Positions 60,602-64,000 of a stretch of 64,000 nucleotides of DNA are shown piece by piece (position 1 is the stretch's first letter; the number at the start of each line of letters is the position of its first letter). This DNA is from Halopiger aswanensis. GTDB taxonomy: Archaea; Halobacteriota; Halobacteria; Halobacteriales; Natrialbaceae. The position numbers and the translations under genes were made by a program. The stretch covers positions 186,001 to 250,000 of the forward strand of contig NZ_RAPO01000003.1 in assembly GCF_003610195.1 (NCBI RefSeq), in the 5' to 3' direction. The notes under the pieces are model-generated. The model was not told the DNA's origin. It worked only from the letters and a program-made list of their open reading frames with translations, and searched no databases.

Positions 60602-60646
60602 GCGCCGGTGGTGAGCAGTTCCGTCGGAACTGCGAACTACGGCGCA
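60602..60646 (+). repeat. tRNA-Gly-like remnant with perfect hairpin
   Basis: The first 11 nt, GCGCCGGTGGT, are identical to the 5' end of tRNA-Gly that begins 68 nt downstream (60670), and GGCGCA at its end matches the tRNA 3' end. The outer GCGCCG and CGGCGC pair with one another, and the inner GCAGTTCC/GGAACTGC (60615-60633) form an 8-bp hairpin. It therefore resembles a tRNA reduced to an acceptor stem and one arm. It lacks an anticodon arm, so is not a functional tRNA. Confidence 0.55.
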
Positions 60647-60669
60647 CAAGCGAACGAAGTGAGTGCCGT

Positions 60670-60740
60670 GCGCCGGTGGTCTAGTGGTAGGACATGAGCT
60701 TCCCAAGCTCATAGCCCGGGTTCAATTCCCGGTCGGCGCA
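60670..60740 (+). tRNA. tRNA-Gly (anticodon CCC)
   Basis: Acceptor arms GCGCCGG and TCGGCGC (one G-T pair), anticodon arm TGAGC-TTCCCAA-GCTCA, T-arm CCGGG-TTCAATT-CCCGG. A TTTT run follows the 3' end, as for normal termination. No CCA is encoded. Confidence 0.95.
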
Positions 60741-60935: not shown

Positions 60936-61008
60936 GCCCGGGTGGTGTAGTGGCCCATCATACGACCCTGTCACGGTCGTGACGCGGGTTCAAATCCCGC
61001 CTCGGGCG
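60936..61008 (+). tRNA. tRNA-Asp (anticodon GTC), copy 1
   Basis: Acceptor GCCCGGG with CTCGGGC, anticodon loop containing GTC in the CGACC/GGTCG stem, T-arm GCGGG-TTCAAAT-CCCGC. It is identical in all 73 nt to copy 2 at 61407. A TATA-like CATAAG lies 30-35 nt upstream. No T-run follows it; the nearest is 135 nt downstream (61143-61146), after a structured segment. Confidence 0.96.
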
Positions 61009-61146
61009 TCTTCTTCCGAATTCACATCCGCCAGCGGGGCGTCTCGTCGCCGAGCGACGCGTGAATTCGGAGACCGGTGACAAAGGGATGTGAAGGCGGG
61101 AACAGCGTCGCTGCGACCGAGGTTCACATCCCGCCTCGAGCGTTTT
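61009..61146 (+). ncRNA. structured segment after tRNA-Asp copy 1, candidate co-transcribed RNA
   Basis: Stem 1: CCGAATTCAC (61016-61025) with GTGAATTCGG (61061-61070). Stem 2: GGGATGTGAA (61085-61094) with TTCACATCCC (61123-61132), inner CAGCG/CGCTG. Bases 61121-61142 copy the tRNA-Asp 3' end with two changes; TTTT follows at 61143-61146. The same arrangement follows copy 2. RNA identity is inferred from paired changes between copies. It could instead be the remnant of a small inserted element. Confidence 0.5.
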
Positions 61147-61406
61147 CTGCTCCGATCTACGTCGGATAGTCGCTCGTAACGCCCGGGTGAGAGGTCTTGG
61201 TGACGACAACGTCGACGTCACCGGCGCACAGCTTCCGCGACGAGAATGGAACGCGCTCCTCGAGTCGATCGGGTTGCTGATCGACGCCAACACCACCAAT
61301 CGGTCGATCAGCCGATGTCGATGCCGCAACCGTTCGGGGCGGATTCTACGTCCGTCGGTGCGGAACAGAACCCTTAAGTCTCTCACCGGGGAACGACGTA
61401 TTGCAA

Positions 61407-61479
61407 GCCCGGGTGGTGTAGTGGCCCATCATACGACCCTGTCACGGTCGTGACGCGGGTTCAAATCCCGCCTCGGGCG
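61407..61479 (+). tRNA. tRNA-Asp (anticodon GTC), copy 2
   Basis: Identical to copy 1. A TATA-like TTAAG at 61374-61378 lies 29-33 nt upstream, and CACCGG is conserved between the upstream regions of both copies. Like copy 1 it is not followed by a T-run until the end of the structured segment. Confidence 0.96.
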
Positions 61480-61618
61480 TCTTCTTCCGAATTCGTATCC
61501 GCCAGCGAGGCGTCTCGTCGCCGAGCGACGCGTGAATTCGGAGACCGGTGACGGGGGATTTGAAGGAGGGAACAGCGTTGCTGTGACTGCGGTTCAAATC
61601 CCGCCTCGGGCGCTTTTT
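61480..61618 (+). ncRNA. structured segment after tRNA-Asp copy 2, candidate co-transcribed RNA
   Basis: Stem 1: CCGAATTCGT (61487-61496) with GTGAATTCGG (61532-61541); its last two pairs become G-U and U-G. Stem 2: GGGATTTGAA (61555-61564) with TTCAAATCCC (61593-61602), one A-T replacing the G-C of copy 1. Bases 61591-61612 copy the tRNA-Asp 3' end exactly (22 nt), followed by TTTTT at 61614-61618. The first 73 nt differ from copy 1 at only three positions; the second part is more diverged. Confidence 0.5.
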
Positions 61619-61886: not shown

Positions 61887-61904
61887 TATATGACATGGGT
61901 ACGT

Positions 61905-64000
61905 ATGCAAACTCCAGGAGACGGCTCGTCGGACGAGTCGTTACACCGACGGATATACGATCGGCTGCGGAGCCGCTACTTCTTCAAGGTCGGCGCGGCG
62001 ATTCTCGTGTTGACCGTCGTCCTGCTCGGTGCGGGCTATTTCTCGTTTACGCAAGCCCAGGCGAGCGTCGAGGGGGACGCGGAAGAAACCCTCCTCAACG
62101 CCGCGGAACGCGAAGCCGATGGGATCGACAAGTTCGTTCAGGATCGGAACGACAACACCGTGGAGATCTCCAATAGTGTCAATCTCGCTAACGCGGACAA
62201 AAGCCAACTTCGGGCGTCGTTACGGACGTACCGCGAGGCGCTCCCGGACAGCGTCCACGCGATCCACTACTACAGCATGGAAAACGACGAGATCGTGGTG
62301 AGCACGCAGTTCAACGAGGAAGGCGACACGGTCGATGAAGCGACGCGTCCCTGGGCGGTCGATATAGACGCGTTCGACTCGAGCGGCGACGTGCGCTCGT
62401 TCGAGCCGTACGACGTCGACGGCGAGAAGCGGATCGGGTTCATCAGCCCGGTCGCCGGACAGGACGACCACGCGATCGTCCTCGTGATCAATCTCGGGGA
62501 GCGCAGCGAACTCCTGACGTCGCCCATCGACGGCGGCGAAATCGAGGTCGTCGCGACGGACGGTCAGATTACGCTCGCCGAAACCACAGGGACGATCCTC
62601 AACGAATCGTTCCTGATGGGAGAACTGCCACACCTGGAGGAAGGCGCGCTGCACCCCCGCGTCGATCAGGTGACGGCCGAAAACGACGTCGTCGGGGACG
62701 ATCAGGTCGTCGTGGCGACGGTGCCACTCCAGGAGAAAGACTGGGCCGTGACCGTCATCGCACCCCACAACGAGGTGTTCGATACCGCCAGCGCGGTCAA
62801 CCGGAACATCCTGTTGCTGATCGGGATCTCGATCGTCGGCTTCGTCGGCGTCGGCGCGGTGATCTCCCGGGACGTCAACAACTCCCTCGAGGAGATGACC
62901 GGCTACGCGGAAGCGATCGAGGATGGGGACCTCGAGGTCGACATCGAACAGTCCCGGACCGACGAGTTCGGCCAACTCGCCGGCCTGTTCGCGCGGATTC
63001 GGGACACGCTGCAGGAGCGGCTGACCGAAGTCGAACAGCAGGCCCAGGAAGCAGAACAGGCCCGCGAAGCGGCCGAGGAATCGAAGGCGGAAGCCGAGCA
63101 AGCCAAGGCCGAGGCCCAGGAAGCCAAAGCGGAAGCCGAAGCCCTGAGCCAGCACTTAGAGGAGAAGGCCGACGAGTACCGGGAGTCGATCGAAGCCGCC
63201 GCGGACGGGGACCTCACGCGCCGACTCGAGACGGCCAGCGAGAGTCAGGCGATGGCCGAGATCGGCCAGGCGTTCAACGAGATGCTCACGGACATCGAGG
63301 CGATGGTCGTGCGCATTCAAACGGTCGCCGCCCAGGTCGACGAGAAGAGCTCCGAGGTCACCGCCTCCACCGAAGAGATTCGCGCCTCGAGCGGCGAAGT
63401 CGCCGAGAGCATCGAGGAGATTTCGGCCGGCGCGGAAACCCAAAACGAGAAGCTGACCACTGCGGCGGCGGAGATGAGCGACCTCTCGGCGACCGTCGAG
63501 GAGATCGCGTCCTCCTCGAACACCGTCGCCGAACAGGCCGATCAGGCCGCCGAACGCGGCGAAGAGGGGAAGACGGCCGCGAGCGACGCCGTCGAGCAGA
63601 TGGACCAGATCGAATCCAAGGCTGTCGACACCGCCGAGGAGATGGCCACCCTACAGGAGGAGGTCGAACGCATCGGCGAGGTCGTGGAACTCATCGACCA
63701 GATCGCCGAGGAGACCAACATGCTCGCGCTGAACGCCTCGATCGAGGCCGCGACCGCCGGCGAGGCCGGCGACGGATTCGCGGTCGTCGCCAACGAGGTC
63801 AAATCCCTCGCCGAGGAGACCGCCGAAGCCACGGAGGAAGTCGAAGACCTCGTCGAAACCGTCGAAGCGTCGACCGAGTCCGTCGCCGACGACATGTTCG
63901 AGATGCGCGACGGCATCGAGGACGGCCGGGAGACGATCGATCGGACCGTCGACACCCTCGAGTCGATCGTCGACTCGATCGACGACGCCAACGCGGGTAT
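61905..64000 (+). CDS. methyl-accepting chemotaxis protein, 3' end cut by window edge
   Basis: At least 698 codons, open to the right edge. Residues 28-50 are the first membrane helix (FFKVGAAILVLTVVLLGAGYF), an extracellular sensor of about 250 residues follows, and the second helix lies near 302-322. HAMP follows (about 322-375), then a Glu/Ala-rich coiled coil (375-420), a second HAMP-like segment, and the signalling domain with its tip at about 602-640 (MLALNASIEAATAGEAGDGFAVVANEVKSL). It resembles the transducer at 20740 but has a different sensor sequence and a shorter N-terminus; it would signal to CheA. The C-terminus is not visible. Confidence 0.95.
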   Translation, partial: MQTPGDGSSDESLHRRIYDRLRSRYFFKVGAAILVLTVVLLGAGYFSFTQAQASVEGDAEETLLNAAEREADGIDKFVQDRNDNTVEISNSVNLANADKSQLRASLRTYREALPDSVHAIHYYSMENDEIVVSTQFNEEGDTVDEATRPWAVDIDAFDSSGDVRSFEPYDVDGEKRIGFISPVAGQDDHAIVLVINLGERSELLTSPIDGGEIEVVATDGQITLAETTGTILNESFLMGELPHLEEGALHPRVDQVTAENDVVGDDQVVVATVPLQEKDWAVTVIAPHNEVFDTASAVNRNILLLIGISIVGFVGVGAVISRDVNNSLEEMTGYAEAIEDGDLEVDIEQSRTDEFGQLAGLFARIRDTLQERLTEVEQQAQEAEQAREAAEESKAEAEQAKAEAQEAKAEAEALSQHLEEKADEYRESIEAAADGDLTRRLETASESQAMAEIGQAFNEMLTDIEAMVVRIQTVAAQVDEKSSEVTASTEEIRASSGEVAESIEEISAGAETQNEKLTTAAAEMSDLSATVEEIASSSNTVAEQADQAAERGEEGKTAASDAVEQMDQIESKAVDTAEEMATLQEEVERIGEVVELIDQIAEETNMLALNASIEAATAGEAGDGFAVVANEVKSLAEETAEATEEVEDLVETVEASTESVADDMFEMRDGIEDGRETIDRTVDTLESIVDSIDDANAG

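Follow-up and report, generated by a model that had tools for sequence, protein, structure and literature searches.

Few genes are as well annotated as those for transfer RNA, yet across a major order of archaea about a third to a half of them seem to bear, at their 3' side, a structurally conserved attachment that has escaped annotation. These attachments, called units or cassettes below, appear to form a class of structured, tRNA-linked RNA that has not been described before and is spread through the whole order Halobacteriales, and no description of such tRNA-trailer cassettes was found in the open-access literature or in Rfam. On balance, comparison of the sequences leads us to favor a Halobacteriales-wide family of co-transcribed, structured trailer cassettes, the fold of which would be kept while the cassettes are shuffled by recombination at a duplicated tRNA tail. 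If transcribed, the units would constitute a large, hitherto unrecognized class of small RNAs or control tRNA 3' ends in a new way; if they are mobile, they would be a new cassette system with tRNA genes as its target.

Structured units behind the tRNA-Asp genes

The window, by which we mean the whole stretch of 64,000 nucleotides analysed from Halopiger aswanensis, contains two identical tRNA-Asp genes that an initial annotation had described as being followed by structured segments, each closed by a copy of the tRNA 3' end and a T-run. Both loci proved to be organized in this way:

60936..61008, + strand: tRNA-Asp (GTC), copy 1 (ARAGORN, Rfam)
60989-61008, + strand: tail that is later duplicated, positions 54-73 of tRNA-Asp copy 1 (ARAGORN, Rfam)
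61009..61084, + strand: unit 1, hairpin A region plus linker (sequence, fold)
61016-61025 / 61061-61070, + strand: unit 1, outer stem of hairpin A, CCGAATTCAC/GTGAATTCGG (sequence, fold)
61085..61094, + strand: unit 1, 5' arm of hairpin B, GGGATGTGAA, complement of the T-loop/T-stem (sequence)
61095..61122, + strand: unit 1, apical X module of hairpin B, a relative of the widespread CAGGGAGCAGC..GCTGCGACCG type
61123..61142, + strand: unit 1, copy of tRNA-Asp positions 54-73 with 2 mismatches
61143..61146, + strand: T-run (TTTT) behind unit 1
61407..61479, + strand: tRNA-Asp (GTC), copy 2, identical to copy 1 (sequence, ARAGORN)
61480..61554, + strand: unit 2, hairpin A region (sequence, fold)
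61487-61496 / 61532-61541, + strand: unit 2, outer stem of hairpin A, with two changes to G-U (sequence, fold)
61555..61564, + strand: unit 2, complement of the T-loop/T-stem, GGGATTTGAA (sequence)
61565..61592, + strand: unit 2, apical X module of hairpin B
61593..61612, + strand: unit 2, perfect copy of tRNA-Asp positions 54-73
61613..61618, + strand: CTTTTT behind unit 2 (sequence)

Both units follow one plan over ~134 nt, in which hairpin A is succeeded by hairpin B, the copy of positions 54-73 and a stretch of T's, and the basal stem of hairpin B consists of tRNA T-loop/T-stem sequence paired with a 10-nt complement. In this stem the units differ by the pairing-preserving swap that had been pointed out earlier (GGGATGTGAA/TTCACATCCC versus GGGATTTGAA/TTCAAATCCC), with unit 1 being the one that departs from the tRNA; its two tail-copy mismatches comprise this compensated change in the B stem and another in the unpaired acceptor strand. 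The earlier reading of the hairpin A stem likewise held, as CCGAATTCAC and CCGAATTCGT, set against GTGAATTCGG, differ by two changes at which pairing is retained only as G-U.

Folded alone, the two segments gained little in stability over dinucleotide-shuffled sequences (z = -1.1 and -1.8). Since their folding energy was unremarkable, we examined relatives instead, and the strong evidence for the Asp units is comparative rather than derived from single-sequence folding. Just beyond the window, a third tRNA-Asp is followed by a unit of this type in a decayed state (L031:5409-5618, equivalent to window positions 64408-64617), and the three Asp units of this genome are more alike mutually than to the units of the sister species, a likeness that suggests concerted evolution. 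The ORF between the second and third tRNA-Asp (61895-64000) resembles, by eye, a membrane-anchored chemotaxis transducer.

It had further been claimed that the neighbouring tRNA-Thr and tRNA-Gly genes have a T-run at once whereas the Asp genes have theirs only after the segment. This did not generalize: in three haloarchaeal genomes, the longest T-run directly 3' of the tRNA averaged 2.53 for occupied and 2.38 for empty tRNAs, so that occupied tRNAs are equally T-rich right at their 3' end, and a displaced terminator is not supported as a general rule. In the same genomes, the longest T-run 3' of the last tail copy had a mean of 2.44, over a background of 1.32.

Distribution across tRNA genes and genomes

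An initial search of 61 haloarchaeal genomes showed that tRNA-Asp genes of relatives are also followed by tail copies, from one to several per gene and roughly 100-173 nt apart, with differing hairpins between them. The segment is not peculiar to tRNA-Asp: at least 25 isoacceptors bear units among five genomes. Under a strict census, which demanded a tail copy plus its complement and covered, outside Halopiger aswanensis, the 30 best-scoring tRNA loci per genome, units were found behind 13/43 tRNA genes in Halopiger aswanensis, 8/30 in its sister species (genome G001), 14/25 in G017 (Natribaculum breve, as judged by a shared locus), 13/30 in G072 and 15/31 in Haloferax elongans; none was found behind the tRNA genes of an outgroup genome of the same phylum (0/29). 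Arg-CCT carried a unit in all five genomes and Ser-TGA in 4/4 of those sampled, and no units were detected by the strict test at Asn, Cys, Tyr, Thr-GGT or Ala-TGC in the five genomes. The plan is uniform over a length range of about 80-175 nt, and up to five units can follow one another in tandem. Haloferax is a genetic model and the genus carries units, which permits direct tests.

An annotation-free signature, GATTTGAA-N18..48-TTCAAATC, matched 238 of 293 Halobacteriales genomes, whereas the reversed pattern used as a control gave no matches; elsewhere in the phylum, rare single matches occurred at chance level, and the loops displayed for them lack the features of units. In a set enriched for matches, the tRNA's own tail was recopied 3' in 139/199 tRNA contexts, as compared with 0/597 for shuffled tails.

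The apical X module (GGGARCAGC..GCTGCGACCG) was found behind tRNA-Trp, Met, Pro, Val, Leu, Arg, Thr, Gln, Lys, Ser and Asp, and at most X-module loci of named haloarchaea the tail copy is that of the local tRNA, with Pro-GGG loci being those where none was found. For one X core, 10 of 53 matches had no tRNA within 1.5 kb, several of which still have the look of tail-bearing units from which the tRNA has been lost or at which it escaped detection. At four loci without a tRNA within 1.5 kb (L106, L125, L134, L137), an X core (GGGAGCAGC..GCTGCGACCG) forms part of other stems, and the apical module may thus be able to move or act beyond tRNA units. Separately, G017 contains two near-duplicate, dense arrays of unusual tRNAs (L217 and L221; C1:6995-11080 and C2:586079-587989), which probably derive from a mobile element; in these arrays weak tail matches were seen and convincing hairpin units were not found.

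Among known systems, the closest in layout are the 178-bp repeats of E. coli tyrT, the source of rtT RNA, which lie 3' of the tRNA, end in a copy of its 3' end and are co-transcribed with it. The haloarchaeal units are likewise repeated behind tRNA genes and each ends in a tRNA 3'-end copy, but whereas tyrT is a single locus, in a bacterium, at which the repeat is conserved, they occur at many isoacceptors across an archaeal order, are unrelated to one another in sequence, and share a fold and a T-loop complement. A search of the window and 12 unit loci with 4227 Rfam families at gathering threshold returned only tRNA and one unrelated leader, and the H/ACA and C/D guide RNA models gave sub-threshold, opposite-strand chance matches with none at gathering. 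A strong match to the L4-Archaeoglobi ribosomal protein leader (71.8 bits) lies at L062:2234-2333 of this haloarchaeal genome. By analogy with the 3'ETS, tRFs and trailer small RNAs of Haloferax, an RNA derived from the tRNA transcript would be expected, although those are tRNA fragments or plain trailers, and to our knowledge none has been described with a second tail copy held in a hairpin. A degenerate tandem tRNA duplicate was also considered and rejected, because a unit holds only positions 54-73, preceded by a hairpin and with no tRNA 5' half.

Conserved pairing and strand asymmetry

Covariation, which had been proposed as a check, was computed for both stems. For hairpin B, units were anchored only on positions 54, 55, 56, 58, 59 and 61 and the remaining positions were permuted; pairing at positions 57, 60, 62, 63 and 64 exceeded all 2000 permutations, position 65 fell inside the shuffled range, and 66 and 67 were at chance. 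The B pairing therefore spans the T-loop and the 3' strand of the T-stem and ends before the acceptor. Positions 2-6 of the hairpin A stem likewise covary beyond permutation.

The tail copy equals the tRNA sequence exactly in 97 of 164 units, and the mismatches cluster at positions 69-73. Where copies have diverged, pairing survives at 33 of 61 changes (18 Watson-Crick, 15 wobble); units whose acceptor part has decayed retain 94% of the pairing at 54-62. Pairing of the copy's acceptor strand with tRNA positions 1-7, on the other hand, is not constrained (35 kept, 30.5 expected). Since changes in the stem often stay paired and those in the acceptor are unconstrained, the stem is the part under maintenance; the acceptor part resembles a leftover from the duplication.

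Strand comparisons were made on 164 non-redundant units, as counts uncorrected for phylogeny. Hairpin B was predicted to be stabler on the sense strand in 139 of 163 comparisons and on the antisense strand in 24, and hairpin A in 120 and 42, respectively. The tandem G-A motif occurred 156 times on the sense and 21 times on the antisense strand, and GA/GA accounted for 220 of the sense-strand 2x2 loops. Single mismatches within helices were more often G-T (83) than A-C (36) when helices were defined without G-U, an asymmetry that G-T wobble in DNA would mimic, and the G-U counts from full minimum-free-energy folds (350 versus 384) were uninformative. These strand asymmetries cannot be explained by double-stranded DNA alone and favor RNA, with folded, strand-specific single-stranded DNA as another possible source. 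A genome-wide abundance of G-A hairpins was rejected as their cause, with 4 in the window versus 3.8 expected.

Such data also bear on whether the units could be function-free palindromes, made and maintained by template-switch mutation. Quasi-palindrome correction can yield compensated changes neutrally, and many units do have perfect stems; correction would, however, erase the tandem G-A mismatches, which are instead conserved, on one strand only, in hairpins that are not a general feature of the sequence. We consider this origin highly improbable.

The initial annotation had also proposed read-through into a structured RNA made together with the tRNA, and this gains indirect support from the hairpins, which are strand-specific, covary and keep their tandem G-A pairs. 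Under the co-transcribed cassette model that we favor, the polymerase would pass the weak T-rich site 3' of the tRNA, transcribe the cassette and stop at the second T-rich stretch. Two hairpins would form in the trailer: A, which tandem G-A pairs often close, and B, where the T-loop/T-stem complement is held by the second tail copy instead of by the tRNA. Usual 3' processing would then separate the mature tRNA from a structured trailer RNA, which might insulate or process the tRNA or serve as a source of small RNA. Folding predictions are consistent with such an arrangement: the probability that the complement invades the tRNA T-loop was 0.73 without the tail copy and 0.15 with it, so the copy is predicted to be needed to keep the complement out of the T-arm. 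In ViennaRNA folds of the full precursor, the partner of the tRNA 5' strand was often the distal tail copy (0.66) rather than the tRNA's own acceptor (0.13), a pairing that would harm the tRNA if it held in the cell. An acceptor swap, in which the distal copy and tRNA positions 1-7 form an alternative processing site, was predicted by the same program and dropped because the acceptor strand of the copy is unconstrained.

Gain, loss and reordering of units

Comparison of Halopiger aswanensis with its sister species revealed that units come and go at one precise point. The sites at tRNA-Asp copy 1 and tRNA-Tyr are occupied in one species and cleanly empty in the other, and the sequence past the final tail copy is that found directly 3' of the unit-free tRNA; at Asp, the trailer past the T-run of unit 1 matches the sequence behind the unit-free gene of G001. 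Lys-CTT, Gly-TCC and Met carry units in the sister species and none in Halopiger aswanensis. At Val-TAC, two shared units (95% and 88% identity) stand in opposite order in the two species, the sister species has an additional third unit, and the A and B modules recombine separately. Cassettes are thus gained, lost and reordered at a single junction, and no single unit is essential, as orthologous tRNAs carry different cassettes in sister species.

Insertion of a mini-element with duplication of its target, which had been put forward as the alternative to read-through, is likewise supported as a mode of unit gain and loss by the precise empty and occupied sites, and further by the permuted order; the two readings are compatible and not exclusive. 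Deletion within arrays between the 20-nt tails or insertion with target duplication would both fit these unpolarised differences. In the cassette model, recombination at the duplicated 20-nt tail would gain, lose, duplicate and reorder cassettes, with A and B modules being exchanged among them.

A rival account holds that the units are mobile, non-autonomous cassettes that insert at tRNA genes and duplicate positions 54-73, the hairpins serving their own mobility rather than the tRNA, either as a folded single strand, like integron attC, or as an RNA intermediate. The precise presence and absence with a 20-nt duplication, the permuted order and tandem arrays, the X modules common to many different tRNAs, the mirror units at tRNA 5' ends (below) and the relic-like decay of the copy's acceptor part all agree with it, and the copy begins at G53|T54, resembling the point, G|TT, at which integron cassettes are cleaved. 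As the tails always match the resident tRNA, movement between tRNAs would require target duplication. Old, diverged units, however, hold their stems by compensated changes, which is unexpected for dead insertions, and the separate recombination of A and B modules at Val-TAC also speaks against it. In addition, an exact scan of viral contigs for the B core found none, and a looser pattern gave chance-like matches there, nearly all of low GC and without strong hairpin loops. We regard this account as unlikely, though worth serious attention.

Integron attC arrays themselves share with the units the tandem cassettes, the reordering, a strand-specific imperfect hairpin beside the junction and the G|TT junction. 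The units differ in being gene-free and anchored to tRNA genes, in having the tail of the resident tRNA and in their extra hairpin A, and their junction, GTTCRAA, departs from the attC R-box GTTRRRY by a C at a purine position. Tentatively, tRNA genes in Halobacteria could be sites at which exchangeable non-coding RNA cassettes dock, each transcribed as a tRNA trailer and copying the resident tail, amounting to a new, order-wide genetic element arranged in integron-like arrays. The cassettes may act on behalf of the tRNA, give rise to small RNAs or be selfish.

Very little probability attaches to the remaining candidate, that the units are attR copies left by ordinary tRNA-targeting integrative elements after internal deletion. 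Archaeal integrases do act at tRNA 3' ends, where copies of the tail are left behind, and att sites of the SSV and SNJ2 type resemble the units in that the duplicate starts in the T-loop. The units are, by contrast, gene-free, without an integrase or other genes between the tRNA 3'-end copies, only about 80-175 nt long, and built on one plan with conserved paired hairpins and a tRNA-specific inverted complement; they occupy a third to half of sampled tRNAs, with the signature in most genomes of the order. The conserved plan already refutes such relics as a general account. Partial tRNA copies adjoining proviruses have been reported in Haloquadratum (PMC3119063).

Mirror-image units precede some tRNA genes, as in the window:

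60602..60669, + strand: mirror-image 5' unit before tRNA-Gly-CCC, the intact tRNA starting at 60670 (sequence)

This unit consists, in order, of a copy of the tRNA 5' end (GCGCCGGTGGT), a GTGAGC..GCGAAC tandem G-A hairpin, the complement of the 5' end and a second G-A hairpin, and it is also found in the sister species, other relatives and Haloferax. A 5' unit of the same plan, with the same G-A motif, precedes tRNA-Gln-TTG (L088), and two such units stand in tandem before Gly-TCC of Haloferax (L440).
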